Below, in pieces: positions 7,474-37,730 of a stretch of DNA of 64,000 nt. The stretch comes from Rhodobacteraceae bacterium M382 (GTDB lineage Bacteria; Pseudomonadota; Alphaproteobacteria; Rhodobacterales; Rhodobacteraceae). Position 1 is the first letter of the stretch. The number at the start of each line of letters is the position of its first letter. Under the pieces are notes generated by a model, which saw only the letters and a list, made by a program, of their open reading frames with translations, was not told the origin of the DNA and ran no database searches. The position numbers and the translations under genes were made by a program. The stretch spans positions 310,001 through 374,000 of the forward strand of contig CP081098.1 in NCBI GenBank assembly GCA_025141015.1. The letters run 5' to 3'.

Positions 7474-8751
7474 TCAGTTGTCGGTGCCCGTCGACAATGT
7501 GTTTGGCGCAAACACATTGCCAAACCCGGAGTCGTTGGAAGGCGCTTTGGATTCTTCCTCTTCTTCGCCGGATTCGTCGGACTGTAGGGTATTGGGGGCA
7601 AACACACCGCCAAAGCCTGAGTTGTTGGATTTGGGCTGGGTGGTTGTGTCTTCTTGGGTTGTGCCCTCTTCCGCAGCCTTGGCTGCCGCTTCGGCAGCGC
7701 GGGCGGCGCGTTCTTCGCGCAGTTTCTGGATGCGCAGTTCTGTTTCCAGTTTTTTCTGTTCCTTGATGCTGGCCACGCATTGCGCCGGGCTGTGCACCAT
7801 GGCGGTGCCGACCACGGTGATCGACCCGATCACAAAGAGCACCAGCGCCATGGCCGCAGCATTGCCGGTCAGCAGACGAGGCAGGCGGAAGCCGGTGGAG
7901 ACGTCTTTGACCGAGGCACCTTTGCGCGCCAGTGCGGCCAGTTCCTTGCGTTTGATGTTGGCTTCGTTGAACAGCGCGGCAAAGATGGTCAGCACAACGA
8001 TCATAAAGGCCAGGGCCGAAATCGCAGGTGTGATGCCATAGCGGACCTTTTGTGCCAGTTCGATGGTCAGGGTCGGATATTCGCCAAAGGTGAAGGTGGT
8101 GGTGTTGTAGTTTTCGAACGACGCCAGGAACGCCAGCACCGCCGCAGATGCGATCGCGGGCCGCATGAAGGGCATCAGGATCTTGCGGAAGGCCTGGGCA
8201 TGGGTGGCGCCCAGATCCAAGGCCGCTTCGGTCAGGGCGATGTCATAGCGTTGCAGGCGCGCCACCAGCACCAACATGCAGTAGCTGGCGATAAAGGTGG
8301 ATTGCCCGATGATGGTCAGGAACAGCCCGTTGGACAGGAAGCTGTCAGCCCCCAGCCCGAGAAAGCGGTTGACCCGGTCCCAGAACACCAGCGTCGAAAT
8401 CCCCAGCACCACGCCCGGAATCAGGATCGGGGCAATGATGATGGTGTAATAGGTCGCCCGCAGCTTTGGCCAGATCTGGGTCAGCATCAGCGCCCCGGCC
8501 AGCCCCATGGTCACCGACAGGATGACGGTGCCAAAGCCGACCAGGATCGAATTCTTGATGCCGTTCAGAATGCGTTCGTCCTGAAACAGAGCCGAAAACC
8601 ATTCAAACGTCAGGCATTCCCAGGGGGCCGCCCGCGGAAACCCGGGCGAGTTGAAGGCAGTGATCGACATGATCACCAATGGGCCCAGCAGATAGGCAAA
8701 GAAGAGCGCCAGATAGGCCCAGATTGAGAGGCGCAGGAAGGAATTTTTCAT
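7474..8751 (-). CDS. PotC-type ABC transporter permease with C-terminal extension
   Basis: A 425-residue inner-membrane permease of the spermidine/putrescine (PotC) type. Six membrane segments span residues 10-265, with the coupling motif EAALDLGATHAQAFRKILMP near 176-195. Ordinary PotC proteins stop near residue 265-280. This one continues with an extra hydrophobic segment (AAAMALVLFVIGSITVV, near 300-320), a charged Ala/Glu/Arg-rich probable coiled coil, and an acidic low-complexity tail that carries two near-identical 15-residue motifs ending VFAPNTL. Its start overlaps the upstream permease stop by 4 bases, so it is the last gene of the SBP-ATPase-permease-permease operon. The role of the tail is unknown. 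Confidence 0.88.
   Translation of the reverse strand: MKNSFLRLSIWAYLALFFAYLLGPLVIMSITAFNSPGFPRAAPWECLTFEWFSALFQDERILNGIKNSILVGFGTVILSVTMGLAGALMLTQIWPKLRATYYTIIIAPILIPGVVLGISTLVFWDRVNRFLGLGADSFLSNGLFLTIIGQSTFIASYCMLVLVARLQRYDIALTEAALDLGATHAQAFRKILMPFMRPAIASAAVLAFLASFENYNTTTFTFGEYPTLTIELAQKVRYGITPAISALAFMIVVLTIFAALFNEANIKRKELAALARKGASVKDVSTGFRLPRLLTGNAAAMALVLFVIGSITVVGTAMVHSPAQCVASIKEQKKLETELRIQKLREERAARAAEAAAKAAEEGTTQEDTTTQPKSNNSGFGGVFAPNTLQSDESGEEEEESKAPSNDSGFGNVFAPNTLSTGTDN
7495..7629 (-). repeat. Duplicated 15-codon motif in the permease tail
   Basis: Two in-frame 45-base copies at 7585-7629 (SNNSGFGGVFAPNTL) and 7495-7539 (SNDSGFGNVFAPNTL) are separated by 15 acidic codons (Glu/Ser/Asp). 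Thirteen of 15 residues are identical, but the DNA has diverged more, mostly at third positions, which implies that the peptide motif is selected. Confidence 0.85.
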
Positions 8752-9668
8752 TTGCCGATGTCCCCCATGTTCACCTTGAACAGGCGCATCACGGCCAGAA
8801 CCAGCAGGATACAGGTGACAAGCAGAACCACCGCATAGGCTGCCCCCTGGGGCCAGTTCGAATTGTCATTGAACCATTGATAGATGATCTGGGTGAACCA
8901 CAGGGACGATGGGCCGCCCAGGATTTGCGGCGCAGCCAATGCGCCGGCCGACAACATGAAGACCATGGTACAGCCCGAGCTGATGCCCGGTTTGGCATAG
9001 GGAATGACCACCCGCCAATGGATCCGCCACCAGGGTGCGCCCAAGTCGCGGGCGGCTTCGATCTGGTTGTGATCCAGGCTTTCGATGACGTTGTACATCG
9101 GAAAGATCATCAACAGGATATAGGCATAGCCCAGCCCGGCATAGAGCGCGATGTCATTGCGGATAAAGTCGAACGGGGTGTCGAATACCCCCAAACCCAC
9201 CAGTGCCGTGTTCAGCACGCCGGATTCGCCAAAGATGATGCGCAGGGCAAAGGCGCGCAGGATTTCATTGATCCAATAGGGAATGATCAGCATCAGCGCA
9301 AAAATGCGGATATGGTTGCCTTTGGTCTGACCCAGGTAATAGGCGATCGGATAGCACAGGATCAGGTTGAAGATGGTCACCAGCACCGCCGCAATCAAAG
9401 TGCGGTAGAACACGGTCAGATCAACCGCATTGTAATCCTGGCTGCCACCTTCGGGGCCAAACACCAGGTATTTGTAGTTCTGCAGCGTATAGACGTCGTT
9501 GGGTCCGCCGATTTCCGGGGGCGGCAGGTTGGGACGGAAGGAAAAGTCGAGCATCGACAATTGAGGGAGGATGATCAGGCCAATGGTCCAGAACAGGACC
9601 AGACCCAGCATCACGGAACCCATCAATGTGCCGTTGCGATTGAAGAAGTCTTTCAAAAAGCGTGGCAT
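8748..9668 (-). CDS. PotB-type ABC transporter permease
   Basis: A 306-residue membrane permease of the PotB type, the first of two transmembrane subunits of an importer for a polyamine-like cationic substrate. One N-terminal membrane helix (SVMLGLVLFWTIGLIILPQL) and a periplasmic loop with the family-typical FRPNLPPPEIGGP stretch precede five further helices. The coupling motif is EAARDLGAPWWRIHWRVVIP, near residues 215-234. It lies 11 bases after the ATPase gene and overlaps the next permease by 4 bases, consistent with one polycistronic mRNA. Confidence 0.88.
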   Translation of the reverse strand: MPRFLKDFFNRNGTLMGSVMLGLVLFWTIGLIILPQLSMLDFSFRPNLPPPEIGGPNDVYTLQNYKYLVFGPEGGSQDYNAVDLTVFYRTLIAAVLVTIFNLILCYPIAYYLGQTKGNHIRIFALMLIIPYWINEILRAFALRIIFGESGVLNTALVGLGVFDTPFDFIRNDIALYAGLGYAYILLMIFPMYNVIESLDHNQIEAARDLGAPWWRIHWRVVIPYAKPGISSGCTMVFMLSAGALAAPQILGGPSSLWFTQIIYQWFNDNSNWPQGAAYAVVLLVTCILLVLAVMRLFKVNMGDIGK

Positions 9669-9679
9669 GATCTGGATCC

Positions 9680-10792
9680 CTATTCCGCCGCCAGTTCGCC
9701 GGCGGGAACGACCACGGCGTTGTGGACTTCGTATTCCAGGGTCATTTTCTGACCGGTGTGATCGTCAAAGGATTGTCCCAGGTTCGGAATCGACACTTTC
9801 AGTTCCTTGCCGCCATCGCCCTGGCAGAAGATGTTGAAGCTGTTGCCTTCGAATTCTTCGTGTTTGACCTGGGCGGTGACGAAATGATCGCCCTGGGTGC
9901 CGGTGGGCGCGATGGACAGGGCTTCGGGGCGGATGAACAGCATGGCGTCGTCGCCCACATTCATCCTGCCCTGGTTGGCCGTGGTGATCCGGGCCATCAG
10001 GTCGCCCGAGCGGTTGGTGCGGATCAGGGCTTCGTTTCCGATGATCTTGGAGACTTTGCCGCGGAAGACGTTGTTTTCACCGACAAAGGAGGCGGCAAAG
10101 GCGGTCGAGGGATCGTTGTAGATGGTTTTGCCATTGCCGATCTGGTCGATCACGCCCGCGCGCATCACAGCCACATCATCGGACATGGTCAGAGCTTCGC
10201 CCTGATCGTGGGTGATGTAGATAAAGGTGATGCCAACCCGTTTCTGGATTTCGCGCAGTTCCGTGCGCATGTGCTGGCGCAGCTTCAGGTCCAGCGCCGA
10301 CAGCGGTTCATCCAGCAGCAGCACATCGGGTTCGGCACACAGCGCGCGGGCGATGGCCACCCGCTGACGCTGGCCACCGGACAGTTCGCTGGGCAGCTTG
10401 TCGCCCTGACCGGGCAGGGCGATCATGTCCAGCAGTTCGTCGGCCCGCTTGCGTCGTTCGCCAGCAGATGCGCCTTTGATTTCGAGCGAAAAGGTAATGT
10501 TTTCCCAGACCTTCATCAGTGGGAACAAGGCCAGGTTTTGAAAGATCAGCGCCGTGGGGCGTTTGTTCGGCCCGATCCCCGCCATGTTGCGCCCGCCGAT
10601 CAGGACATTGCCTTCGGACGGTTCCAGGAACCCGGACACAGCGCGCAATATCGTGGTTTTGCCACAGCCCGATGGGCCCAGGAACGAAAAGAAATCGCCA
10701 CCCTTGATATGAACATTGGCGTCACGCACAGCAACGAAATCGCCAAAGCGGATCCAAATATTTTCGAGATCAACGCCGACTCCAGCACTCAT
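9680..10792 (-). CDS. PotA-type ABC transporter ATPase
   Basis: A 370-residue ATP-binding subunit powering the neighbouring permeases. Visible motifs are Walker A GPSGCGKTT, the Q-loop in FQNLALFPLM, signature LSGGQRQRVAIARA, Walker B VLLLDEPLSALD and H-loop THDQGEALTM. They are followed by a C-terminal TOBE domain typical of the PotA/UgpC class. I place the start at the ATG at 10792 because AGGGAG lies 8 bases before it; an in-frame TTG seven codons upstream lacks such a site. It lies between the binding-protein gene (130-base gap) and the permeases. The substrate class is assigned by similarity to polyamine importers and could be another cation or amino compound. Confidence 0.9.
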   Translation of the reverse strand: MSAGVGVDLENIWIRFGDFVAVRDANVHIKGGDFFSFLGPSGCGKTTILRAVSGFLEPSEGNVLIGGRNMAGIGPNKRPTALIFQNLALFPLMKVWENITFSLEIKGASAGERRKRADELLDMIALPGQGDKLPSELSGGQRQRVAIARALCAEPDVLLLDEPLSALDLKLRQHMRTELREIQKRVGITFIYITHDQGEALTMSDDVAVMRAGVIDQIGNGKTIYNDPSTAFAASFVGENNVFRGKVSKIIGNEALIRTNRSGDLMARITTANQGRMNVGDDAMLFIRPEALSIAPTGTQGDHFVTAQVKHEEFEGNSFNIFCQGDGGKELKVSIPNLGQSFDDHTGQKMTLEYEVHNAVVVPAGELAAE

Positions 10793-10922
10793 CTGGCTAC
10801 TCCCTGATGCCAAATTCCACCGCGTCCAATTGGGCGCGTGATTTGGTCTTGGATTTGTTGTTATTGGTCGTGTGTCCGCGCCCCCAGAGCCGATCCGGGG
10901 ACGCGGTGATCAGCGCGAGAAA

Positions 10923-12041
10923 TCAGGCGCTCTTGAACTTGTTGACGAATTCCGTCCGCACATCCGCATACCACGGTGCTTCGGCCGGCCAGGGGTTCAG
11001 ATTGGCCAGGCTGTCGCCGGGATAGGCTTCGGCAAAGTTCTTCTTGTAGGTGTCCCCCGAGAAGGTATCGGCACCCAAAACTGGCGAATTGTAGCCATGG
11101 CTGTCGATCGCCTTGCCCGCCGGTTGCTTTTGGTAGGCATAATTGATGAAGGCATAGACCTGTTCGGTATTGGTCGCGCCAACCGGCATGGAAATGCCGT
11201 CAACCCAGGCCATCGCGCCTTCGACCGGTGCCTGATAATGCACCGGCTCACCGGCGGCTTTCAGGGCCAGCGGGGGCCCGTCCCAGGTCTGGCCAACAAC
11301 AACACCTTCGTTCAGCAGGCCGTTCTTTTGGGTGTCGGCATCGTTCCAGATCAGTTTGATCCGCGATTTGTACGAGATGCACCAATCCGCGATCTGTCCC
11401 CAGACCTTGCGCATGGTGTCTTCGTCACCATAAGCCGCCCAGACCGATCCCGGTTCCATCTGACCCGAGGCCTCCATGTACAGACCCGCGCCCAGCATCA
11501 TCGAATGCGCGCGCCCCATGGTTTTGCCAGCGTTTTCTTCGCTCCAGACATCGCCATACGACGGGGCATCCCCGGCGGGCAGCCATTTGTCGGTGCGATA
11601 GGCAATGCCTTCGGTGCCCCAGATATGCGGCAGCCAATGCGACCCCTGATCTGCAAAGTTCCAGGCAACCGTGCCGATCTTGGCCATCGCGGGGTTCACC
11701 GCGTCGATATTGACCTTGTTCATGTCAAAGGGCTGCAACAGTTCCAGCGGACCCCACTGCAAGGACCGGTTGTTGGTGGGCGATACGATATCGAATCCCT
11801 GACCCTTGGTGGCTTTCATCTTGTTGATGATTTCTTCGTTCGACCCGATGCCGGTGTAATTCACCTTGATCCCGGTTTCGGCTTCGAACCCGGCGATGAA
11901 TTCCGGTGGCAGGTAATCGGACCACATCAGAATGTTGACTTCGCCGGACGAGGCAAGTGCGGATTTCGAATAAAGCGGTGCAGCCAGCGCCGCAGCCCCG
12001 GACATTTTCAGAATTGAACGACGTGAGATTTGTGTTTTCAT
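10923..12041 (-). CDS. PotD/PotF-type periplasmic substrate-binding protein
   Basis: A 372-residue periplasmic binding protein. The N-terminus has a twin-arginine-type signal (ISRRSILK, then a short Ala-rich hydrophobic stretch and SALA-S), so Tat export is likely and the protein would fold before export. The mature part opens with VNILMWSDYLPPEFIAGFE, the classic PotD-type opening, and includes the conserved HIWGTEGIAYRTD and WTWDGPP-like (GQTWDGPPLALKAAG) ligand-pocket segments. AAGGGG precedes the ATG. It is the first gene of the transporter operon, after a 441-base gap from the alcohol-dehydrogenase gene, so it probably has its own promoter. Ligand identity is uncertain. Confidence 0.88.
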   Translation of the reverse strand: MKTQISRRSILKMSGAAALAAPLYSKSALASSGEVNILMWSDYLPPEFIAGFEAETGIKVNYTGIGSNEEIINKMKATKGQGFDIVSPTNNRSLQWGPLELLQPFDMNKVNIDAVNPAMAKIGTVAWNFADQGSHWLPHIWGTEGIAYRTDKWLPAGDAPSYGDVWSEENAGKTMGRAHSMMLGAGLYMEASGQMEPGSVWAAYGDEDTMRKVWGQIADWCISYKSRIKLIWNDADTQKNGLLNEGVVVGQTWDGPPLALKAAGEPVHYQAPVEGAMAWVDGISMPVGATNTEQVYAFINYAYQKQPAGKAIDSHGYNSPVLGADTFSGDTYKKNFAEAYPGDSLANLNPWPAEAPWYADVRTEFVNKFKSA

Positions 12042-12482
12042 AATATTCCCCTTGTTGGTTCTTTGTCGGCCTTATGTCTTGCCGATTTTGTGGAAACGTT
12101 TGGTTGATTGCTCCTTTGACTTCTCCTGTGACAGGTCTCGGCGTTTATGAAACCAGGCGACTTCGCGGTCATGCCAGATCGTTTTGACAGTCATGTAAAC
12201 GAGACCAAGATCTCCAAATTTTCAGTTCCTTCCGAGACAGCCGGGCCTCAATTTTCAAAGCCTCTGAAATCGAGGGGCGGCCCCGACGTCCGTGAATACA
12301 TGGAAACAGGAACTGGACCGCGGTCTGTCCTCTTTACGAAACGCCCAAGTCGGCCACTTGTCCAGACATTTATCGGGCTCCGTGGCGGGAGCTTTGTGTT
12401 GTTGTGTGGTTTTTTGGGCTTTTCTGGGTGTATTTTTTGGGCGGTGCGGCTTGGTGCGCCGCCCTTTGATTTTGGGGGTGTT
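12042..12482. other. Intergenic region upstream of the transporter operon
   Basis: These 441 bases contain no gene I can support. The part next to 12041 should hold the promoter and leader of the binding-protein gene. A GC-rich inverted repeat (GGGCGG ... CCGCCC, about 12439-12465) flanked by T and A tracts lies just beyond the alcohol-dehydrogenase stop and could slow or end transcription; its T-tract is on the wrong side for a textbook minus-strand terminator. The base composition is lower in GC than the neighbouring genes. Confidence 0.5.
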
Positions 12483-13628
12483 TCAGATTGATTGATTGAA
12501 GAGCTGCGTGAGGTTTTGTTGGGTGAGTGTGACGGGGTTTCCGCCGCATGAGGGGTCTGTGAGCGCGCCTGCGACGAGGTCTGGGATTGCGTCTGCTGTG
12601 ACGCCGAGCTCGGTGAGTTTGCGGGGGATGGCGAGGCTGTCGTTGAAGGTCTGGACAAAGGTGCAAAACCCGTCAAAGCCGCCGGTGATGCCCAGATAGG
12701 CGGCGGCCTGATCAAACCGGTCGGCGATTTCGGGTGCGTTCAGCGCCAGCACGGCGGGCATGCAGACCGCATTTGTGGTGCCGTGGTGGGTGTTGAACAT
12801 GGCGCCGACGGGGTGGCTCATGGCGTGGATGGCCCCGAGACCCTTCATGAAGGCGGTGGCCCCCATGGCGGCGGCCGACATCATCTGGGCGCGGGCCTCC
12901 AGATCGGTGCCGTCCGTATAGGCGCGCGGCAGATATTCCTTGACCAGGCGCATGCCTTCGAGCGCGATGCCCTGGGACATCGGGTGGTAATGGGGGCTGG
13001 AGAACGCCTCGACGCAATGGGCGAAGGCATCGAGCCCGGTGCCTGCGGTGATGGCCCTGGGCATGCCCACGGTCAGCTCGGGGTCGCAGATGACGACTTC
13101 GGGCAGCACCTTGGGGTGAAAGATGATCTTCTTGGCGTGGGTCACCGAATTGGTGATGACGCTGGCGCGGCCGACTTCGGATCCGGTGCCTGCGGTGGTG
13201 GGCACGGCCACGATGGGCGCGATGGCGTCCGCATCGGCGCGGGTCCACCAATCGTCCACATCCTCGAACTCCCACACGGGCCGGGTTTGGCCGGCCATAA
13301 AGGCAACCATCTTGCCCAGGTCCAGCCCCGAGCCGCCGCCAAAGGCGATGACGCCATCGTGGCCCCCGGCGTTATAGGCGGCAACCCCTGCGGCCAGGTT
13401 GATCTCGTTGGGATTGGGGTCGACCTCGGCAAACAGACCCCGGCCCAGACCGGCGGCCTCCAGGATGTCCAGGGTGGCTTTGGTGATCGGCAGATCGGCC
13501 AGGCCGCGGTCGGTGACCAGCAGGGGGCGTGTCATGCCGGTGGCGGCGCAGGCGGCGGGGAGTTCGCTGATCCGGCCAGCGCCGAATTTGATGTTGGTCG
13601 GATAGGACCAGTTTCCAACGAGAGACAT
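12483..13628 (-). CDS. Iron-containing alcohol dehydrogenase
   Basis: A 381-residue group III (Fe-type) NAD(P)-dependent alcohol dehydrogenase. The dinucleotide-binding GGGSGLDLGK, the PTTAGTGSE motif (near 137-145), and the metal-binding region GTGLDAFAHCVEAFSS followed by NTHHGTTNAV are all present, giving the expected Asp/His ligand set. The start at 13628 gives the usual family length; the frame stays open upstream but that part is not conserved. It lies 35 bases after the aldehyde dehydrogenase gene, so the pair could oxidise an alcohol group to the acid. In the local setting a gamma-glutamylated amino alcohol is a plausible substrate (inference). Confidence 0.87.
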   Translation of the reverse strand: MSLVGNWSYPTNIKFGAGRISELPAACAATGMTRPLLVTDRGLADLPITKATLDILEAAGLGRGLFAEVDPNPNEINLAAGVAAYNAGGHDGVIAFGGGSGLDLGKMVAFMAGQTRPVWEFEDVDDWWTRADADAIAPIVAVPTTAGTGSEVGRASVITNSVTHAKKIIFHPKVLPEVVICDPELTVGMPRAITAGTGLDAFAHCVEAFSSPHYHPMSQGIALEGMRLVKEYLPRAYTDGTDLEARAQMMSAAAMGATAFMKGLGAIHAMSHPVGAMFNTHHGTTNAVCMPAVLALNAPEIADRFDQAAAYLGITGGFDGFCTFVQTFNDSLAIPRKLTELGVTADAIPDLVAGALTDPSCGGNPVTLTQQNLTQLFNQSI

Positions 13629-13663
13629 GTTCGTTCTTCCTTCAGACAGGGTCAGGGCGGCTC

Positions 13664-15046
13664 TCAGCCGGTGACTTTCTTGAGATGGTAGGATTTGGGC
13701 CGGGTCAGATTGTGATAGCCGATGATGGAGAGCCCACCGCCGCGCCCGGTGTTCTTGCAGCCGGTCCAGCACAGGCCGGGGTCCAGGTAATCGGCGCGGT
13801 TCAGGAACACGGTGCCGGTCTCGATGCGATCGCCGACCGCTGCGGCGCGGTCCACATCCGCCGTCCACAGCGATGCGGTCAGGCCAAAGTCGCTGTCGTT
13901 CATCAGGGCGATGGCCTCCTGGTCACCGGACACCTTCATGATGCCCACCACGGGCCCAAAGCTCTCGTCGCGCATCACCGCCATGTCATGGGTCACGCCG
14001 GTCAGGATCTGCGGCGTCAGATAGGCCGCACCATCATCGGCCACCATCGGCGCGATATGGGCGGTTGCACCGGCGGCCACGGCGGCGTCGATCTGGGCGC
14101 GCACCTCGGCGGCGAACCGGACATTGGCCATCGGCCCCAGGGTGGTGTCCGGGTCCAGCGGATTGCCCAGGGTATAGCCGCTGACGATCTCCACGGCCTT
14201 CTCGACAAAGGCGTCATAAAGGCTCTCATGCACGTAAATCCGTTCGATCCCGCAACAGCACTGACCGGCGTTGAACATCGCCCCATCGATCAGCGTGTCG
14301 ACGGCGGCGTCCAGATCGGCATCCTCCATCACGTATCCCGGGTCCTTGCCGCCCAGCTCGGTGCTGACGCCGGTGAAGGTCCCGGCGGCGGCGCGTTCCA
14401 TCGCCTGGCCACCGCCGACCGAGCCGGTGAAATTGACAAAATCGAACGCCCGGCGCGCGATCAGCTCGGATGTGGTGTCATGATCCAGGAACACGTTCTG
14501 GAACACGTCCTGCGGCACGCCCGCATCGTGGAACGCCGCGGCCATGCGTTCGCCCACCAACAGGGTCTGGGTGGCGTGTTTCAACACCACGGTATTGCCG
14601 GCAATCAGCGCCGGGGCCACGGTGTTGATGGCGGTCATATAGGGATAGTTCCAGGGTGCGACGACCAGCACCACCCCATGGGGAATCCGTTTGATATATC
14701 GTTTGAATGTCGCGTCCTCGCCCACGGCGATATCAGCCAGCGCCTCCGCCGCAATCGACGCCATATGGCTGGCGCGCTCGTTGAAACCGCCAAATTCACC
14801 ACCATACCGAATGGGCCGCCCCATCATATGGGCCAGCTCGGGCACGATGGCATCATTCATCGCGCCCACCGCCGCGACCCCGGCCATCACCAGGTCAATC
14901 CGCTCGGCCAACGGCCGCGCCGCCCAGGCGGCTTGCGCCCCCCGTGCCCGCGCCGCCACCGCAACAGCCGCCTCGCGCGACAGCACTGTGCGTTCGGCAA
15001 ACACCGATCCGTCAATCGGGGAAATACACGTCAATGTCTGGCCCAT
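13664..15046 (-). CDS. Aldehyde dehydrogenase family protein
   Basis: A 460-residue NAD(P)-dependent aldehyde dehydrogenase. The cofactor site PWNYPYM (Asn of the oxyanion hole), FTGSVGGG near residue 215, the general base in ELGGKDPGYV and the nucleophile cysteine in FNAGQCCCGIERIYV near 277-279 are all visible. Three adjacent cysteines at the nucleophile site are notable; the usual motif is GQxC. The length is at the short end of the family. It lies between the glutamine-synthetase-like ligase and the iron alcohol dehydrogenase, the arrangement expected for oxidising a gamma-glutamyl-amino-aldehyde, as in the Puu pathway. Confidence 0.88.
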   Translation of the reverse strand: MGQTLTCISPIDGSVFAERTVLSREAAVAVAARARGAQAAWAARPLAERIDLVMAGVAAVGAMNDAIVPELAHMMGRPIRYGGEFGGFNERASHMASIAAEALADIAVGEDATFKRYIKRIPHGVVLVVAPWNYPYMTAINTVAPALIAGNTVVLKHATQTLLVGERMAAAFHDAGVPQDVFQNVFLDHDTTSELIARRAFDFVNFTGSVGGGQAMERAAAGTFTGVSTELGGKDPGYVMEDADLDAAVDTLIDGAMFNAGQCCCGIERIYVHESLYDAFVEKAVEIVSGYTLGNPLDPDTTLGPMANVRFAAEVRAQIDAAVAAGATAHIAPMVADDGAAYLTPQILTGVTHDMAVMRDESFGPVVGIMKVSGDQEAIALMNDSDFGLTASLWTADVDRAAAVGDRIETGTVFLNRADYLDPGLCWTGCKNTGRGGGLSIIGYHNLTRPKSYHLKKVTG

Positions 15047-15070
15047 GCCCTCAACTCCACATCTCGGATC

Positions 15071-15136
15071 AGGGGCACGCGCCCCTGCTTCTTTCTGGTC
15101 AAAAATACCTCGGGGGTCTGGGGGCAGCGCCCCCAG
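15071..15136 (-). repeat. Intergenic repeat family, copy A
   Basis: Read on the minus strand, a hairpin GGGGGCGCTGCCCCC is followed by the core GAGGTATTTTTGACCAGA and AAGAAGC. Three relatives lie at 37678-37730, 46124-46188 and 54070-54143. This copy separates the ligase gene from the aldehyde dehydrogenase gene inside the operon and may modulate readthrough. Confidence 0.75.
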
Positions 15137-15149
15137 CCTTGACCCCAGC

Positions 15150-16511
15150 TCACGCCCGTTCGAACCCGCGCGCGACCTCCCAATCGGTCACAACGCGGGC
15201 AAACTCTTCGATCTCCACCTCGGCGGCACGGGCGTAGTGGTCGACCACATCGTCGCCCATCGCCGCGCGCAGCATGTCCGAGCCGTGCAGCGCGGTGCGC
15301 GCCGCGCCCAGATCGCCGGGGATCAGGCCGGTGTCGCCCTGATAGACATCGCCCACCGTGGGCGGCTGCAGCTCCAGACCTTCCTCGATCCCGGCCAGAC
15401 CGGCGGCCAGCATGCCCGCCATCGCCAGATAGGGGTTCATGTCCGATCCCGGGATCCGGCATTCGACGCGGATGGCCTTGGACCCTTCACCACACAACCG
15501 ATACCCGGCGGTGCGATTGTCCACCGACCAGATGATCCTTGTGGGGGCAAATGTCCCCTTCATGAAGCGTTTGTAGCTGTTGATATAGGGGGCCATGAAA
15601 TAGGTGTAATCAGGCGCATATTTGAGCAGCCCGGCCATATAGGACTTCATCAGGTCCGACATCCCCAGCGCGTCATCCGGGTCGTGAAACGCCGGTTTGC
15701 CATCGGCCCACAGGGATTGATGCACATGGCTGGAACTGCCGACCTTGTCATGATGCCATTTGGGCAGAAAGGTTGCGGCGTGGCCCTGCTGCCAGGCGAT
15801 CTCCTTGATCGCGTGTTTGGCGATCGAATGATACTCCGCCGTGTCCATGGCAGGCGCATATTTGATGTTGAGCTCTTCCTGCCCGGTCTCGGCTTCGCCC
15901 TTGGTGCATTCGATCGGCAGACCCGCCTCCCACAGGTGATTGCGGATCGGGCGCATCACATGTTCTTCCTTGGTGGTCTGCAGGATGTGGTAATCTTCGT
16001 TATAGCCCGAGATCGGCGTCAGATCGCGAAAGCCGCCCTTGCGGATCTCGTCAAAGCCCTTCTCGAACAGAAAAAACTCCAGCTCGCTCGCCATCATCGG
16101 CTCGAACCCCAGGGCGCGCACGCGGGCGACCTGACGCTTCAGCATCGCGCGCGGACTGTGGGGCACCTCGGCGTGGGTGTGGTGATCCAGAACATCACAC
16201 AGCACCAGCGCGGTCCCCTCCAGCCAGGGCACAAGGCGCAGGGTGCTCAGATCCGGCTTCATCACATAATCGCCATAGCCCCGCTCCCAGCTGGTGCTCG
16301 CATAGCCTTCCGGCGTCCCCATCTCAAGATCCGTCGCCAGAAGGTAATTGCAGCAATGCGTCTCCTCCCACGCACCCCCAACAAAATGACCCCCATGAAA
16401 CCGCTTCCCCATCAAACGGCCCTGCATGTCAACAAAACACACCAATACCGTGTCAATGCTGCCACCAGCCACCTGAGACTCAAGTTCCTTGAATGTGAGC
16501 GTGCTGTTCAT
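15150..16511 (-). CDS. Glutamine-synthetase-like gamma-glutamyl-amine ligase
   Basis: A 453-residue member of the type I glutamine-synthetase superfamily. The metal and ATP sites are visible in ASELEFFLFE (near 142-151), ECTKGEAETGQEELN, SSSHVHQSL and VDNRTAGYR-x-C-GEGSKAIRVE-R-PGSD. The N-terminal beta-grasp domain is more like PuuA/GlnT-type ligases than housekeeping GlnA: it has VCFVDMQGRLMGKR where GlnA carries the DxxG loop, and no NLY adenylylation tyrosine is evident. Such enzymes join glutamate to an amine (putrescine, ethanolamine or methylamine). It overlaps the amidohydrolase-like gene by 4 bases and precedes aldehyde and alcohol dehydrogenases, which favours an amine or amino-alcohol substrate. 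Confidence 0.85.
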   Translation of the reverse strand: MNSTLTFKELESQVAGGSIDTVLVCFVDMQGRLMGKRFHGGHFVGGAWEETHCCNYLLATDLEMGTPEGYASTSWERGYGDYVMKPDLSTLRLVPWLEGTALVLCDVLDHHTHAEVPHSPRAMLKRQVARVRALGFEPMMASELEFFLFEKGFDEIRKGGFRDLTPISGYNEDYHILQTTKEEHVMRPIRNHLWEAGLPIECTKGEAETGQEELNIKYAPAMDTAEYHSIAKHAIKEIAWQQGHAATFLPKWHHDKVGSSSHVHQSLWADGKPAFHDPDDALGMSDLMKSYMAGLLKYAPDYTYFMAPYINSYKRFMKGTFAPTRIIWSVDNRTAGYRLCGEGSKAIRVECRIPGSDMNPYLAMAGMLAAGLAGIEEGLELQPPTVGDVYQGDTGLIPGDLGAARTALHGSDMLRAAMGDDVVDHYARAAEVEIEEFARVVTDWEVARGFERA

Positions 16512-17260
16512 GTCTGGTCCTCCCGAACCGCTATGTCTGTCAGTGCCGGTTCCAGCAGCATCAGGATTTCCTGCGCGCGGTCGGCAATTTCATCGGGGGT
16601 GCGCAGCAGATCGTTGCGCACCTCAAGCATGACGTTGGCCAGCCCACGCGACAGCGCATGCAGGCAGAGCGAATGGGTGACCCCATCCGCAGGGCCATAG
16701 GGTTCATTGCGGGCGACGTGGCGCTGTGGGATCCGGTCCACGTGGTCCAGCATCGCGTCCACCAGACGGCTGTCGGTGTCGTGCAACAGGCCCAGTTCAA
16801 CAGCGCGGGGCTGGCCAAAATAGGTCGGCGTGAAGGAATGCACCGTCACCACGATGGTGTCTGGGCCACGGGCGTCCAACACAGAGTTCACAGCGGCGCA
16901 GAACGGATCATAGACCGCCCTGGTGCGCGCATCGCGGTCGGATTGGGTCAGGTCGGCATTGCCGGGAACCTGAATCAATTCCGATTTTGCGGGCATGGCG
17001 CTGGCGGCGTCGGGCGGGCGGTTGCAGTCATAGACCAGCCGCGACACGGTCGCGGCCACAACCGGCGCATCCAAGGCGCGCGACAACGCCAGCGCCAGAT
17101 CCCGCGCACCCGGATCCCAGGCGGCGTGGCTGTCGCGGTCCGAGGGTTTTAAGCCCAGATCGCCGTAGTGCTGTGGGATGCGGCGGCTGGCGTGTTCGCA
17201 CAGGATCACCACGCGGCCTGTGCCGTCTGGATTCAGGACTTCGACGGGAGCGGCTGTCAT
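16508..17260 (-). CDS. N-formylglutamate amidohydrolase family protein
   Basis: A 250-residue hydrolase of the FGase family, zinc enzymes that cleave N-acyl or amide bonds of glutamate derivatives. Conserved segments are VVILCEHASRRIP (His ligand region), HAAWDPGARDLAL, the RLVYDCNRPP box and TVHSFTP with its His. Stop/start overlaps of 4 bases on both sides tie it to the Na/Pi transporter gene upstream and the ligase gene downstream. In a gamma-glutamylation route it is the natural candidate to release glutamate from the oxidised gamma-glutamyl product; that role is inferred from context, not shown by sequence. Confidence 0.8.
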   Translation of the reverse strand: MTAAPVEVLNPDGTGRVVILCEHASRRIPQHYGDLGLKPSDRDSHAAWDPGARDLALALSRALDAPVVAATVSRLVYDCNRPPDAASAMPAKSELIQVPGNADLTQSDRDARTRAVYDPFCAAVNSVLDARGPDTIVVTVHSFTPTYFGQPRAVELGLLHDTDSRLVDAMLDHVDRIPQRHVARNEPYGPADGVTHSLCLHALSRGLANVMLEVRNDLLRTPDEIADRAQEILMLLEPALTDIAVREDQT

Positions 17261-18939
17261 GCCGGGGTTTCCGACTTGGGCATGTCTTCGATCAGGCGGG
17301 TTTCCAGCAATTGGCCGTTGCGATAGAGGATCGGATAGGCCACCGCGGCGATATGGCTGTTGAATTCGCGGAACGCGCGCAGGGTTTCCAGGTGGATGTC
17401 GCTGGTTTCGAAACTGTCGGTGGTGCCGTGTTGCAGCCGTTTCAGATGGCGTTTGCGGCTGTCGCGTTCGGCGCGTTTGATTTCGGTTTTTTCCAGGCTC
17501 AGCAGGCGGGCGCTTTCGAGATCGTCGGAGATCAACACGTTTGACGCCAGACGCATATTGGCCAGGATGCCTTCGTGCATCTGCACCAGCTCGCTCCAGC
17601 CGTCTTTGGAGAAGGTGGCACCTTTGGATCGCATCTCGCCGGCCAGGATGGTCAGGCGTTTGGCGACCACATCGCCGGCGGTCTCTAGCCGGATGGCGTA
17701 TTCCATCAGGTCACGGGCGATTTTTGCGTCTGCCTTGGAAAATTCGTCCGACGGCAATGCGGCGACAAACCCACGGATGCCTGACAGGCAATCGTTGACA
17801 TCATGGTCGATGGCCTGCACCGCCTTGATCTGGTCCTTGTCACCGGCCTGATACAGGTTGAGACAGGGTTGGAACATGGCTTCGACCAGATCGGCCATGC
17901 GCAGGAGTTCCCGTTTCAGCGCGGAGAGCGCCTGGGTCGGGCTGTGCACCTGGCGCAGGTTCAACGCGCTGGTCGGGCGCATCAAATCCTGGGTTTGTTC
18001 GGCGCGGATCGGATCCTTGATCAGGTTTTCAAATGGCGATTGCAGTTTGCGACAGAAGGGCAGCGCCAGAACCAGCAGCGAGGCGTTAAAGGCCAGATGC
18101 GCAGTGACCAGCATTTGCCCACCCTGCGGATCGCCCAACAACCCGGTGCGCAGGGCCAGATTGGCCCCGAACAGGGTGATCACCGCCCAGGTGCCCCGCA
18201 GGGCCAGATTGGCAAAGGGGATGCGGCGCGCCACCGGGTCCATGCCGCGCGACAGCCAGACCGGGATAAAGCCCGAGCCAAAGTTGGCCCCCAGCACCAG
18301 CGACAGACCAGCGGCAAAGGGGATGGCGCCGATCTGAACCAGGGTGACGCACATCAGGATGGCGGCGACGCTGGAATGCATGACAAAGGCCAGCGCCCCG
18401 CCCACAAGAAAGGCGGTGATATAGTCGCGGGCCAGATATTCCGCGATCGCGGGGAGAAAGGCGCTGTCGCGGATCGGGTCCATGGCTTCGCGCAGGAAGC
18501 GCAGAGAGATCAGGATAAAAGCGACGCCCATCAGGATGCGGCCCAATTGGCGGGCTTTGCGGGCTTCGGTTTTGACAAACAGATAGCCACCGATGGCCAG
18601 CAGCAGCGGCACCAGCCAGTCCAGTTTGAATGACAGGATCTGAATGATCAGCGCCGATCCCAGATCGCCGCCCAGCACGATCGCCAGGCCGGTGGGAAAG
18701 GTCAGCAACCCGCTGGCCGCGAACCCCGACGTCAGCAGCGCCACCGCCGCCGAGCTTTGCAGGACGATGGCCAATGCAATGCCCACCATGCTGGCCTGTG
18801 CATTGCTGCGTTGTCCGGTCAGAACACGTTGGAACGACGCGCCATAGCTGCGTTCGATGCCGGTGCGGACCATGCGCACCGCAAACAGCAGCAACATGGT
18901 CGCGCCTGCCAGGCTGATGAGAAAGCTAACAATTGCCAT
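17257..18939 (-). CDS. Na/Pi-cotransporter family protein with PhoU-like domain
   Basis: A 560-residue membrane protein of the NptA/YjbB class. Two inverted repeats of the SLC34-type core are marked by ALAIVLQSSAAVALLTSG (near 57-74) and FVMHSSVAAILM (near 188-199). About eight membrane helices are followed from roughly residue 330 by a cytosolic helical PhoU-like domain with repeated RMADLVEAM and RLETAGDVVAKRL stretches. E. coli YjbB, of this class, is reported to export phosphate, so direction of transport is open. Its placement inside an operon of phosphatase and amide-handling genes suggests it deals with phosphate set free by catabolism (inference). It lies 4 bases after the phosphatase gene. 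Confidence 0.87.
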   Translation of the reverse strand: MAIVSFLISLAGATMLLLFAVRMVRTGIERSYGASFQRVLTGQRSNAQASMVGIALAIVLQSSAAVALLTSGFAASGLLTFPTGLAIVLGGDLGSALIIQILSFKLDWLVPLLLAIGGYLFVKTEARKARQLGRILMGVAFILISLRFLREAMDPIRDSAFLPAIAEYLARDYITAFLVGGALAFVMHSSVAAILMCVTLVQIGAIPFAAGLSLVLGANFGSGFIPVWLSRGMDPVARRIPFANLALRGTWAVITLFGANLALRTGLLGDPQGGQMLVTAHLAFNASLLVLALPFCRKLQSPFENLIKDPIRAEQTQDLMRPTSALNLRQVHSPTQALSALKRELLRMADLVEAMFQPCLNLYQAGDKDQIKAVQAIDHDVNDCLSGIRGFVAALPSDEFSKADAKIARDLMEYAIRLETAGDVVAKRLTILAGEMRSKGATFSKDGWSELVQMHEGILANMRLASNVLISDDLESARLLSLEKTEIKRAERDSRKRHLKRLQHGTTDSFETSDIHLETLRAFREFNSHIAAVAYPILYRNGQLLETRLIEDMPKSETPA

Positions 18940-18943
18940 GCGT

Positions 18944-19717
18944 CTATCCGTGGATCAGGGTGAGAAGCTGTTGGTGCAGCGCAGGGGTCGCAGCCGAGAC
19001 GACGCGCCCGTCCGACTCCATCGTCAGCGGATTTCCGTCCCAATCCGTCATGATCCCGCCTGCGGCCTGGATCACGACAGAGACGGGCATGTAGTCATAG
19101 GGCTGCAGGTCATAGTCGATCACCGCGTCCACATGACCGGCAGCCAGCAGAGCATGAGGATAGCAGTCATAGGCAAATCGGCGGGTCTGGCCGGCGCGGG
19201 TCAGACGATCAAACAGGGCCGGATAATCGCGATAGATCTTTTCGCCTTCGTTGATGAACAGGATCGACTGGTTCAGATCGGTTTGGGTCGAAGTGTGGAC
19301 CGGGTCGCCGTGGAGCGTGGTCTGATGACCACGGACCCCGACAAAGGTTTCGTTCAGGGCCGGCATTCCGATCACGCCGATCTGCGGCACCCCGTCAACC
19401 AGATGCCCCAGCAGAAACCCGAACAGCGGATGGCCCGACAGAAACGAACGGGTGCCGTCGATGGGATCGACAATCCACAGGTTGCGGCTGTCTCCACCGG
19501 TGATCCCCTCTTCTTCGCCAAAGACGCCGTGATCGGGGAAATGTTCGCTCAGATAGGCACGGACCTGCGCTTCGACGCCTTTGTCGGCCTGGGTGACCGG
19601 GCTTTCGTCGGATTTGAAATCAATGCCCAGCGCGCCGCGAAAATATCCGCGTGCGGCGTCGGCTGCGATGTCGGCGATGCGGGTTGCGTGTTCGACCAGA
19701 TCAGACTGTGTCAGCAT
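18944..19717 (-). CDS. Inositol-monophosphatase-family phosphatase (HisN-like)
   Basis: A 257-residue Mg2+-dependent, lithium-type phosphatase. The metal motifs are GEEEG (near 71-75), WIVDPIDGTRSF (near 87-98) and a C-terminal YDLQPYDYMPVSVVIQAAGG. The family covers inositol monophosphatase, histidinol-phosphatase HisN, and 3'-phosphonucleotide or fructose-bisphosphatases. The EEEG/DPIDGT pattern resembles the HisN subgroup. The gene is not near his genes; it overlaps the DeoR-type regulator by 17 bases and precedes the Na/Pi transporter, so a small organic phosphate from the same pathway is an equally good substrate. Confidence 0.85.
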   Translation of the reverse strand: MLTQSDLVEHATRIADIAADAARGYFRGALGIDFKSDESPVTQADKGVEAQVRAYLSEHFPDHGVFGEEEGITGGDSRNLWIVDPIDGTRSFLSGHPLFGFLLGHLVDGVPQIGVIGMPALNETFVGVRGHQTTLHGDPVHTSTQTDLNQSILFINEGEKIYRDYPALFDRLTRAGQTRRFAYDCYPHALLAAGHVDAVIDYDLQPYDYMPVSVVIQAAGGIMTDWDGNPLTMESDGRVVSAATPALHQQLLTLIHG

Positions 19718-20516
19718 TGCGGGTCTTTCCGTCTGCGAGAAGTGTCGTGATGTCCCAATCGGCCAGCGCCTGTGCCAGAGTCGGATCTGGGGTCTGGTCG
19801 GTCACCATGTCGTCGACCTGGGACGGTTTCAGCCCGATGTGGGGGGCTTTTTCGTTGAATTTGTGATGGGTCATCGCCATCAGCACACGGTCGGCATTTT
19901 CGGCAATGATCCCGCCCAGGTCGGCTTCGGCGGCGTTGAGATACAGAAAGCCGCGTTTGGGTGACAGGGCATCGGCGCTGAGCACGGCCATGTCGAAGGA
20001 GAACCGACGGGCCTGTTTTTCGGTGACATAGCCAAAGGCACCGCGTTCGTCGCTTTGCATTTCTCCGCCCAGCAGATGCACCCGGTTGTCATTCTGGCTG
20101 ACCAGGGTCTGGGCCACACCGATGGAATTGGTTGCCACGGTCAAATTCGACCGGCGGCTCAGCTTTTCCGCGACAAAGGCCGTGGTCGAGCCAACATCGA
20201 GAAACAGGCACATGCCGTCATGGATCTGGTCCACCACACCGGCCGCGATGACGCGTTTTTCGGCAGCATTCTGGGAGATGCGGCGGAAGAAGCTGGGGTC
20301 GTTCTTGTTTCCGACCAGATAGGCACCGCCGTGTACGCGGGCGACTTCGCCGGATTTGGACAGGGATTTGATGGTTCGACGCACGGTTTCTTCGGAGACG
20401 TCCAGCGCCTTGGCCAGATCGGCGCTGCGGGCGGATCCACCCAATCGACGCAACGCTTCGATCAATTCGACCTCTCGATGTGTGTGTGGCGCCCGAACTT
20501 GCACATTTATCCCCAT
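19701..20516 (-). CDS. DeoR/GlpR-family transcriptional regulator
   Basis: A 271-residue repressor-type regulator. The N-terminal winged helix (EALRRLGGSARSADLAKALD then VSEETVRRTIKSLSKSGEV) carries the DeoR signature and is followed by VHGGAYL. The C-terminal sugar-phosphate sensor domain includes LFLDVGSTTAFVAEKL and VHLLGGEM. Members of this family usually respond to phosphorylated metabolites such as glycerol 3-phosphate or sugar phosphates. It heads the minus-strand array and is divergent from the phosphodiesterase-like gene. The 166-base region between them holds several ACACAAA-type repeats that could be its operators. Confidence 0.87.
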   Translation of the reverse strand: MGINVQVRAPHTHREVELIEALRRLGGSARSADLAKALDVSEETVRRTIKSLSKSGEVARVHGGAYLVGNKNDPSFFRRISQNAAEKRVIAAGVVDQIHDGMCLFLDVGSTTAFVAEKLSRRSNLTVATNSIGVAQTLVSQNDNRVHLLGGEMQSDERGAFGYVTEKQARRFSFDMAVLSADALSPKRGFLYLNAAEADLGGIIAENADRVLMAMTHHKFNEKAPHIGLKPSQVDDMVTDQTPDPTLAQALADWDITTLLADGKTRNADTV

Positions 20517-20682
20517 TTACCCAAACAATTCACACAAAGACACACAAACTTCACAATTATCAAGCTCTTTTTTGTTGAGCGATGTGTGGATTTGTGGAAA
20601 GTCGGGATGTGTCAGGGTCAGGGACCGAGGGGTCCGTCGCGTGATCCGGCCCCCAGAAATCGAGCGTCGGCAGGAAAATCAG
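20517..20682. promoter_or_regulatory. Divergent regulatory region with CACA-rich inverted repeats
   Basis: Two clusters of the same word in opposite orientation are visible. CACACAAAGACACACAAAC at 20531-20549 faces TGTGTGGATTTGTGGA at 20583-20598, whose complement reads TCCACAAATCCACACA. A further short palindrome (GCTC ... GAGC) lies between them. The region separates the DeoR-type regulator from the phosphodiesterase-like gene, so it should contain both promoters; the repeats are candidate DeoR-family operators. Confidence 0.5.
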
Positions 20683-22224
20683 ATGACCGAAAACCGGAAT
20701 GTTCTCTTTGTTATCATCGACCAATTGCGGGCCGATTGCCTGTTCGGGTCACTGGCGGATCATGTGGATTTGCCCAACCTGCGCGCCCTGATGGACGAGG
20801 CTGTGACCTTTACCCGACATTTTTCGGTGACCAACCCCTGCGGCCCGTCACGCGCGTCGATCCTGACCGGGCAATATGCGATGAATCACCGGTCGGTGCG
20901 CAATGGCACCCCGTTGCGCCACGATGCGCCCAATATCGCGACCAGTATGCGTAAGGCCGGGTATCTGCCGCTGTTGTTCGGGTATACCGACACCTCGCAG
21001 GATCCGCGTGTCTTTGATGCGGATGATCCGTTTCTGACATCATATGAAACCCCGATGCCCGGGTTTCACGAGGTGATGGAAATGCGCCAGGAAATGTCGA
21101 TACCCTGGCGGTCGCATTTGATGAACCAGGGCTATGAATTCGACAGGTATTGGGATGTCTACACACCCGTTTCTCCGGCTGGCGCGCCGCCGCGGTTGAA
21201 CGATCCGGCGCTGTATCGGGCCGAGGACAGCGATACCGCGTTTCTGACGGATGCGTTTCTGAACCACATGCCGGCCTGTCGTGATCAGGGGTGGTTTGCG
21301 CATTTGACCTATATTCGGCCCCACCCACCATTGGTGGCCCCTGCGCCCTATAACGACATGTATGATCCGGATAGTTTGCCCAGCCCCGTCGGTCTGGACA
21401 CGGCCGCAGCGGAAACCGCGCTGCATCCGTTCTTTGGTCCGGCGTTGGGCTATGCGACCCCGGCCAAATTTGTCGAAGGGTTTCCGGATCTGGAGCCAAC
21501 GGAGGACAATATCCAGACCCTGCGGGCGATCTATCTGGGGTTGGCAACCGAAGTGGACCACCATGTGGGGCGGGTCGTGCAATTTCTCAAGGACAGCGGG
21601 CAATACGACAGCACGTTGATCGTGGTGACGGCCGATCACGGCGAAATGCTGGGAGATCGTCATGCGTGGGGCAAGATGAATGTTCATGATGCGGCCTATC
21701 ACACCCCGCTGATCATCCGGCAGCCCGGCAATGCCGCGCGCGCGGGGACCCGGATCACAGCGCCGACAGAGTCGATTGATGTCACACCGACGATCCTGGA
21801 CTGGATCGGGCAGGAGATCCCCAATTCCATGGACGGGCGGTCGCTGTTGCCGTTGCTGCGCGGGGAGAGGCCGCAGGATTGGCGGCCGTATACGTTTTCC
21901 GAGCTGGATTTCGGGGCTCCGATGCAGCCGACCGTCTGGCAGACCGCATTGGGGACGGATGCCAGCGAGTCCAATCTGAGCATCCTGCGGGACGATCGAT
22001 TTACCTTGGTCGAATTTGCCGCCGACCTGGCCCCGATGCTGTTTGATGGGGGCGGTGCCGGATCCGACGCCTTGGTGAATGTTGCGGACAGGCCGGAGTA
22101 TCAGGCGGATCTGGCCCGGTTGACGCGACAGATGCTGCGCCATCGCATGAAGAACATGGATCACACGTTGTCGTTGACGACGATTACCGATGCTGGTGCC
22201 GTGGTTCGGCCACGGCGCGGCTGA
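20683..22224 (+). CDS. Phosphonate monoester hydrolase/phosphodiesterase-type sulfatase-superfamily enzyme
   Basis: A 513-residue alkaline-phosphatase-superfamily hydrolase. Cys53 in NPCGPSRASILTGQ is the C-x-P-S-R formylglycine site; D13, D318 and H319 (TADHGEMLGD) and K331 are further expected active-site residues. The overall layout, including YIRPHPPLVAPAPYNDMY, ESIDVTPTILDWIG and the C-terminal RMKNMDHTLS, matches my recollection of the Rhizobium phosphonate monoester hydrolase/phosphodiesterase more than classical arylsulfatases. The ATG at 20683 gives the natural N-terminus. No signal peptide is seen, so it is probably cytosolic. It is divergent from the DeoR-type regulator. Activity needs a formylglycine-generating enzyme encoded elsewhere. 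Confidence 0.78.
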   Translation: MTENRNVLFVIIDQLRADCLFGSLADHVDLPNLRALMDEAVTFTRHFSVTNPCGPSRASILTGQYAMNHRSVRNGTPLRHDAPNIATSMRKAGYLPLLFGYTDTSQDPRVFDADDPFLTSYETPMPGFHEVMEMRQEMSIPWRSHLMNQGYEFDRYWDVYTPVSPAGAPPRLNDPALYRAEDSDTAFLTDAFLNHMPACRDQGWFAHLTYIRPHPPLVAPAPYNDMYDPDSLPSPVGLDTAAAETALHPFFGPALGYATPAKFVEGFPDLEPTEDNIQTLRAIYLGLATEVDHHVGRVVQFLKDSGQYDSTLIVVTADHGEMLGDRHAWGKMNVHDAAYHTPLIIRQPGNAARAGTRITAPTESIDVTPTILDWIGQEIPNSMDGRSLLPLLRGERPQDWRPYTFSELDFGAPMQPTVWQTALGTDASESNLSILRDDRFTLVEFAADLAPMLFDGGGAGSDALVNVADRPEYQADLARLTRQMLRHRMKNMDHTLSLTTITDAGAVVRPRRG

Positions 22225-22395
22225 GGCGCAACGGGGGCGCAACGGGGGCGCGGCTGAGGGGACAGCGAGGGCGGATCCGGCCCTGACAGTGCTTTTCATG
22301 TTCAGGATTTTCTTGTAATCGCCGGATGGGTGGGCAAGGGTCCGCGGGATGGGCCCGGACGGACCCGGATGGACCTGTCAGGCAAAGGATCTGCT

Positions 22396-37550: not shown

Positions 37551-37677
37551 AGGGAGATGGTCCTGTCGCGGCGTCAAGATGGGGCGAGATTAGTTCGCAA
37601 TCCGAGCAGGGGAAACCGGTTTTTTATGCACCATTGCCCGAGAGGGGCCGGGGCTGTGCCCCGTGGCCGTTTCGGAC

Positions 37678-37730
37678 TTGGGGCTCTGCCCCAAACCCCG
37701 AGGTATTTGAGACCAGAAAGAAGCAGCAGG
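37678..37730 (+). repeat. Intergenic repeat family, copy B
   Basis: A hairpin TTGGGGCTCTGCCCCAA is followed by the core GAGGTATTTGAGACCAG and AAAGAAGCAGCAGG. It lies in the 250-base gap between the histone-deacetylase-like gene and the secreted protein gene, on the opposite strand to both genes. Confidence 0.8.

Follow-up and report, generated by a model that had tools for sequence, protein, structure and literature searches.

The gamma-glutamylation of ethanolamine is the closest described system. According to the sections of Westermann et al. 2023 consulted (PMC10132767), it is encoded in Phaeobacter sp. MED193 in the order RpiR-GGAH-EtoVWX-ETAGA-GAADDH-GETADH, and its EtoX protein has a Kd of 7.9 uM for ethanolamine and does not bind phosphorylethanolamine. 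For Chromohalobacter and Agrobacterium the same pathway had already been reported (Vetting et al. 2015, cited in PMC10132767), and the import of intact headgroups before catabolism was, in the consulted sections, left undetermined by the 2023 study (PMC10132767). Here, a gene array at positions 7474 to 22224 of a 64,000-nucleotide stretch of Rhodobacteraceae bacterium M382 (contig CP081098.1, positions 310,001 to 374,000; henceforth called the window) was analysed, in which relatives of these ethanolamine genes stand beside phosphate genes and a PotDABC-like importer. With moderate confidence, the cluster is read as a catabolic operon for an ethanolamine phosphate ester; glycerophosphoethanolamine or some other small phosphodiester of ethanolamine would be the likeliest substrate, and phosphoethanolamine a possible one.

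In the route that we infer, including all its substrates, the order of its phosphate-side steps, its export and its regulation, PotDABC would import the intact ethanolamine phosphoester, a phosphonate monoester/phosphodiester hydrolase (PMH) would cleave the diester, and an inositol-monophosphatase-family phosphatase (IMPase) would take the phosphate off the monoester. The released ethanolamine would be gamma-glutamylated by a glutamine synthetase (GS)-like ligase (ETAGA), the product oxidised by an iron-dependent alcohol dehydrogenase (ADH; GETADH) and then by an aldehyde dehydrogenase (ALDH; GAADDH), and the result hydrolysed by an FGase-type enzyme (GGAH) to glutamate and glycine. A Na/Pi-PhoU protein (NaPi) would export surplus phosphate, and a DeoR-family regulator would sense a phosphorylated intermediate and control the divergent promoter.

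The ethanolamine genes and their second copy in the genome

All genes that a sequence-only reading had named in this minus-strand array with a divergent PMH gene are in place in the open reading frame (ORF) list of the window and in profile scans. The ethanolamine half, on the minus strand, comprises the GS-like ligase (15150-16511; PF00120, 313.8 bits), which is 83% identical to the MED193 ligase, the ALDH (13664-15046; PF00171, 369.9 bits), the ADH (12483-13628; PF00465, 155.3 bits), whose start is probably 13628 (MSLVGNWSYP...) as in its relatives, and a hydrolase (16508-17260) that had been called an amidohydrolase and could be refined to the N-formylglutamate-amidohydrolase (FGase) family (PF05013, 131.9 bits; nearest solved relative 2odf, Atu2144, E 1.6e-70).

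A GS-domain search of the same genome returned two sites with equal scores. Positions 12390-16473 of the window differ from C1:3333890-3337973 at only 10 of 4,084 bp (99.755% identity); the duplicated tract spans GS from codon 13, ALDH, ADH (99-100% identical between the copies) and 93 bp beyond, and the copies lie 3 Mb apart with different flanks. The second copy sits in an RpiR-FGase-TRAP-GS-ALDH-ADH cluster with a DctM-DctP type TRAP system, and the same gene order in MED193 is that of the ethanolamine pathway in the sections consulted (Westermann et al. 2023, PMC10132767). The FGase of this second cluster is 62% identical to that of the window. Its TRAP binding protein has 4uab/4xf5 as best solved relative (E 4.2e-194), and the 4uab structure contains ethanolamine. 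The EtoX-type TRAP transporter and RpiR, both present at the second copy, are absent from the window operon, where PotDABC and DeoR stand instead, and EutB had no match in the same genome. Since GS-ALDH-ADH are near-identical to a copy in the published layout for ethanolamine gamma-glutamylation, we strongly infer that the amine is ethanolamine; the gamma-glutamyl route for an amino alcohol in the sequence-only reading is thereby supported and can be given a name.

GS has a close relative, at E up to 1e-110, in 117 of 198 genomes of the family. From the 118 matches outside the own genome, 80 flanks were fetched, eight of them shorter than 19 kb; all seven scored genes of the EtoX-type layout were found in 57/80, and GS, ALDH and ADH together in 72/80. 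In eight of the genomes, another PotD-like importer, 27-30% identical to the PotD of the window, adjoins the GS cluster (loci of relatives are given by L numbers: L021, L026, L031, L036, L039, L054, L062, L066). In 11 loci, namely L144 and ten others, mostly Leisingera, a gene that by eye resembles GcvP, a glycine cleavage protein, is found some 7.5 kb away from PotD; it would suit glycine as the end product but may reflect clade-specific synteny.

The window genes GS, ALDH and ADH are adjacent and of the EtoX-type lineage. In a GS tree of 93 rows (quick search, SH-aLRT support only), the two genomic copies pair at 100 and are joined next by five Aliiroseovarius loci of EtoX type (93). The GS genes of L155 and L186, two loci that like the window carry phosphate genes, group with the EtoX-type locus L013, and those of L147 and L162 stand apart; given this split placement, GS of the phosphate-type loci does not form one clade. 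An FGase tree of 20 rows unites the window with L155, L162 and L186 (96/95 support), and set against the GS pairing this grouping makes the phosphate-type operon look older than the near-identity of GS-ALDH-ADH. Taken together, the trees suggest that an older operon received GS copies from EtoX-type loci more than once, with separate insertions as the alternative, and the duplicated tract suggests that a three-gene cassette was copied, or underwent gene conversion, recently.

Phosphate-side proteins, importer and linkage in relatives

Next to FGase on the minus strand lie NaPi, a Na/Pi cotransporter-like protein with a PhoU domain (17257-18939) that exceeds the cut-offs of both the symporter subfamily (NF037997, 112.5 bits, cut-off 50) and the PhoU domain (PF01895, 31.1 vs 23.5 bits), the IMPase (18944-19717; PF00459, 167.2 bits), which stays below the cut-off of the HisN histidinol-phosphatase model (TIGR02067; 237.7 bits vs 275.15), and the DeoR-family regulator (19701-20516; PF00455, PF08220). 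From its linkage to phosphatase genes, NaPi would be a phosphate exporter. The divergent PMH on the plus strand (20683-22224; PF00884) matches PDB 4upk with 817 bits over 506 residues (E 4.1e-245) and carries the formylglycine motif C-x-P-x-R as NPCGPSRAS, and FGE is present in the genome; against the PehA equivalog (NF045661), 451 bits were reached at a cut-off of 900. The PMH frame is listed from 20356, and the ATG at 20683 is more plausibly its start. The source organism of 4upk is Silicibacter pomeroyi, and no established physiological substrate is known for its PMH.

The importer genes follow at the far end of the minus-strand array, and all four stayed below the PotABCD equivalog cut-offs: a PotC-like permease (7474-8751; PF00528; 114.8 bits, cut-off 326), a PotB-like permease (8748-9668; PF00528; 156.7 bits, cut-off 348), a PotA-like ATPase (9680-10813, with a probable start near 10792 by likeness to relatives; PF00005, TOBE_2; 319.7 bits, cut-off 482), and a PotD-type solute-binding protein (SBP) with a Tat-like signal (10923-12041; SBP_bac_8; 88.7 bits, cut-off 582). 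The best NCBIfam model for PotA is PhnT2, a putative 2-aminoethylphosphonate ATPase (325.8/457.7 bits). This match, the PMH name, which refers to phosphonate monoesters, and locus L111, where class-III pyridoxal phosphate enzyme-like and DMT-like genes adjoin DeoR-NaPi (by eye), would suit a 2-aminoethylphosphonate ester rather than a phosphate ester as the phosphorus substrate, from which PMH would free the phosphonate. However, no C-P bond-cleaving enzyme was found among the scanned cluster proteins, and free 2-aminoethylphosphonate lacks a hydroxyl for the ADH-ALDH route; this substrate is judged improbable.

Polyamine catabolism (putrescine or similar), with PotDABC as a polyamine importer, a PuuA-like ligase and independent phosphate genes, was also weighed. 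Among solved structures, PotF and PotD are closest to the binding protein, and gamma-glutamylputrescine synthetase falls among the GS-like ligases; the GS of the window, however, scored 187 bits against the corresponding model (PuuA type, NF045547) at a cut-off of 650, and its near-identical copy belongs to an EtoX-type cluster. Polyamine catabolism was rejected as the main reading on these two results. In the binding protein, PotD W34, Y37, W229, W255 and D257 are kept in 76/76 sequences, and the position of E. coli PotD E171 holds S in 76/76, which together with the low PotD score may speak against polyamine catabolism. The putrescine route is not known to need an alcohol dehydrogenase. The alternative of a ligase acting on polyamines, which the sequence-only reading had itself raised, is thus weak on the sequence tests made, and polyamine catabolism appears very improbable. 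A related pocket argument was dropped: D168 and E171 are acidic residues with known roles in E. coli PotD, and an R in place of D168 would have suited a phosphate-bearing ligand, but the R of one alignment becomes a gap once eight other SBPs are added, which also lack E171 and hence provide no positive control.

For the linkage analysis, the genome_contigs collection was scanned for the PotD type. A relative is encoded on 225 stretches, the best 80 of which were kept; these loci are not independent, with Ruegeria, Leisingera and Aliiroseovarius dominating, and eight are shorter than 20.5 kb. At the identity cut-offs used, at least one of PMH, DeoR, IMPase and NaPi was found in 30 of these best 80, ethanolamine-cluster genes in 12, and both in 7. 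The seven-gene set is complete in two relatives, L155 (Ruegeria sp. HKCCD8929) and L162, both with the order DeoR-IMPase-NaPi-FGase-GS-ALDH-ADH-DMT-PotDABC. L147 (Aliiroseovarius) has PMH-DeoR-IMPase-NaPi-GS-ALDH-ADH-PotDABC without FGase. In five further Aliiroseovarius loci (L135, L136, L138, L139, L143), a DMT gene and PotDABC follow immediately downstream of an entire TRAP ethanolamine cluster. PotDABC, PMH-DeoR-IMPase-NaPi and RpiR-FGase stand consecutively in L202, and L204 shows another order. The DMT gene lies between NaPi or ADH and PotD in 20/80 PotD loci; it has no significant match in the window, where the EamA gene at 22330-23286 does not match it either.

Of 198 family genomes, 75 contain relatives of NaPi (E up to 1e-60), and among 30 fetched NaPi loci at the cut-off, 15 have PMH, DeoR or IMPase adjoining and 3 have GS. 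NaPi lies within 8 kb of GS in 5/83 loci, two of which (L119, L122) came via the NaPi search with their GS genes in the GS match list, and this linkage requires 5 changes on the quick GS tree; with the PotD-fetched loci added, 9/92 loci and 8 changes were counted. The chance of a given partner within 10 kb is about 0.5% (arithmetic: one gene in about 4 Mb), and the NaPi-GS linkage is therefore above chance. The phosphate half is thus linked to the ethanolamine half beyond chance in a minority of loci, and the co-occurrence in relatives that had been proposed as a check turned out positive to that extent.

Some related loci differ in content. In L096, L097, L101 and L123, genes of PMH and IMPase type adjoin an ABC importer that by eye looks Dpp-like and whose binding protein is large; L096 and L097 also contain another DeoR gene. 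Perhaps these loci use the same phosphate module for another substrate. A glycerate 2-kinase-like gene (by eye) adjoins PMH in L098 (5041-7928, 4 bp overlap with PMH) and in L170 (3177-6110), and perhaps serves the alcohol half of the ester. L149, from a record titled Nocardioides marinus, resembles the Leisingera loci, and its title or assembly is probably mislabelled.

Operon structure, regulation and weighing of the proposed route

Spacing was taken from the ORF list. DeoR and IMPase overlap by 17 bp, IMPase and NaPi are separated by 4 bp, and the NaPi/FGase and FGase/GS overlaps are 4 bp each, which supports DeoR through GS as one unit. The gaps then widen to 103 bp (GS-ALDH), 35 bp (ALDH-ADH) and 441 bp (ADH-PotD, 12042-12482). 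The array, described as near-continuous in the sequence-only reading, is so only as far as ADH, and PotDABC may form a separate unit. The GS-ALDH gap (15047-15149) folds into two GC-rich hairpins with an unexceptional z-score of -1.5 and could attenuate transcription; the double hairpin belongs to a dispersed repeat that also occurs at 37677-37726 of the window, with three genome copies under a strict pattern. A promoter pattern scan yielded weak promoter-like sites only, fewer than in shuffles. Outside the array, at 3545-6825, genes for adenine deaminase and AMP nucleosidase adjoin each other; this purine pair has no apparent connection with the cluster.

With the PMH start at 20683, the divergent DeoR/PMH intergenic region measures 166 bp (20517-20682). 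A repeat near TTGTGGGTTTTTGTGG is common to the DeoR/PMH intergenics of 24 relatives. The matrix built from it, from which the window was excluded, gave a mean best score of 20.3 bits vs 6.6 (highest 15.7) in shuffled sequence, a contrast that is partly built in, since the real set served to fit the matrix; 3/24 intergenics (L140, L152 and L170 of MED193) fall under the best shuffled score. The window intergenic reaches 19.2 and 17.4 bits, ranking first and third of all window positions, and the four best window hits are 20532 and 20582 in this region and 12402 and 12412 in the ADH-PotD gap, where the GT-rich matches span 12392-12426. Control of PotDABC by DeoR was considered and is not claimed: 6/79 orthologous PotD upstream regions reach 15 bits (controls 2/1,094), with medians of 8 to 10 vs 3.6 in controls, a difference that T-rich promoters may explain. 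A Pho box with up to 3 mismatches was found in 8/79 orthologous PotD upstream regions vs 10/390 control stretches; these loci are related, and the count was not built upon.

Published proteomics bear on the MED193 locus L170, which on the reversed contig reads PMH-DeoR-NaPi-DMT-PotD-PotA-permeases. In the sections consulted, phosphate stress increases PotA (MED193_11419) and PotD (MED193_11424) in wild-type cells, whereas a phoB mutant shows no such rise; growth on phosphorylethanolamine increases 'GlpR' (MED193_11439), P < 0.05 (PMC10132767). By a tag count in steps of five, a mapping of our own for a locus that those sections do not discuss, MED193_11439 corresponds to the DeoR of L170. The phosphate half of the proposed route is supported by its linkage and by these proteomic data.

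Several observations weigh against an operon for ethanolamine phosphate esters. Neither gene set was found within the fetched flank in 45/80 PotD-type loci (37 of 45 Ruegeria or Leisingera), 15/30 NaPi loci lack a PMH, DeoR or IMPase partner at the cut-offs used, and among the 80 GS flanks PMH occurs in only 2, NaPi in 2 and IMPase in none. No PMH was seen in L155 and L162, whose visible sequence 5' of DeoR measures 0.6 and 1 kb, nor in L186, a metagenome-assembled genome in which IMPase is broken, only the end of ALDH remains and DeoR is also missing; in L140, GS and the beginning of ALDH are gone from an otherwise conserved cluster. The PMH-DeoR-IMPase-NaPi set beside the Dpp-like importer has no GS relative over the cut-off. 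In addition, the column of PotD D168 is alignment-dependent, the MED193 DeoR/PMH intergenic scores only 11.9 vs the best shuffled 15.7, relatives show no conservation of the repeat upstream of PotD, and no convincing Pho box (CTGTCAT-N4-CTGTCAT) was found in the window, the ADH-PotD gap having 5 mismatches at best and the DeoR/PMH intergenic no site with up to 5.

Much of this would suit a general organophosphate or phosphonate-ester module made up of the phosphate genes and PotDABC, beside which the ethanolamine genes were merely inserted in some lineages, with no shared substrate. PotDABC occurs without either partner set in the 45/80 loci given above, L140 and L186 partly lost ethanolamine genes and kept phosphate genes or PotDABC, the PMH-DeoR-IMPase-NaPi set adjoins the Dpp-like importer in L096, L097 and L101, and PMHs are known to be promiscuous. 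Yet both sets meet in several arrangements (L155/L162, L147, the five Aliiroseovarius loci, L202, L204), and the NaPi-GS linkage needs 5 changes in 83 loci, which leaves such a module rather unlikely. Within the preferred reading of an operon for ethanolamine phosphate esters, a Pho-independent headgroup route is proposed tentatively, in which an intact zwitterionic ethanolamine phosphodiester would be imported by the ABC system, split in the cytoplasm by PMH and IMPase, and used mainly for carbon and nitrogen while phosphate is exported. Confidence in both is slightly lower because L155 and L162 show no PMH and because L140 and L186 are decayed.

Comparison with described systems

That the combination is not a described pathway, as the sequence-only reading had put it, holds for the joint operon and fails for its glutamyl half, which was already described (PMC10132767 and its reference 32, as far as consulted); only the combination with the phosphate genes is new. 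A literature search, which left most subscription journals and all preprints outside its scope, found no description of the joint operon in the texts as far as accessible, and the sole paper found there with both 'phosphonate monoester hydrolase' and 'ethanolamine' concerns MCR-1. For ethanolamine esters, the cluster provides candidates for the importer, the hydrolase, the phosphatase, the phosphate exporter and the regulator, and named strains such as MED193 have related loci; it could represent the Pho-independent headgroup route that the 2023 study did not settle. If the proposed route is true, PMHs may gain a natural substrate and physiological role, PotD-type importers, often annotated as polyamine transporters, possibly a new substrate class, and the carbon, nitrogen and phosphorus cycles would be linked at one chromosomal site.

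Compared with the MED193 ethanolamine pathway, the window shares the GS-like ligase, ALDH, ADH and FGase-type hydrolase, whereas DeoR, IMPase, Na/Pi-PhoU, the divergent PMH and PotDABC replace TRAP and RpiR, and its FGase belongs to the separate lineage with L155, L162 and L186. The Roseobacter/Phaeobacter sp. MED193 locus L170 (MED193_11409 to 11444 by our own tag count) resembles the window in its order of PMH, DeoR, NaPi and PotDABC, with PotD at 89%, but differs in that no IMPase, FGase, GS, ALDH or ADH relative over the cut-offs lies within 10 kb, in its extra DMT gene, and in the glycerate 2-kinase-like gene (by eye) beside PMH. The GlnA4 pathway of Streptomyces coelicolor likewise starts with ethanolamine gamma-glutamylation, in an actinobacterial host (PMC6529630, as far as consulted). 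The PMH of the window resembles 4upk in its 817-bit match and CGPSR motif; in the window and in related loci its gene is linked with that of an importer and sometimes also with ethanolamine genes.

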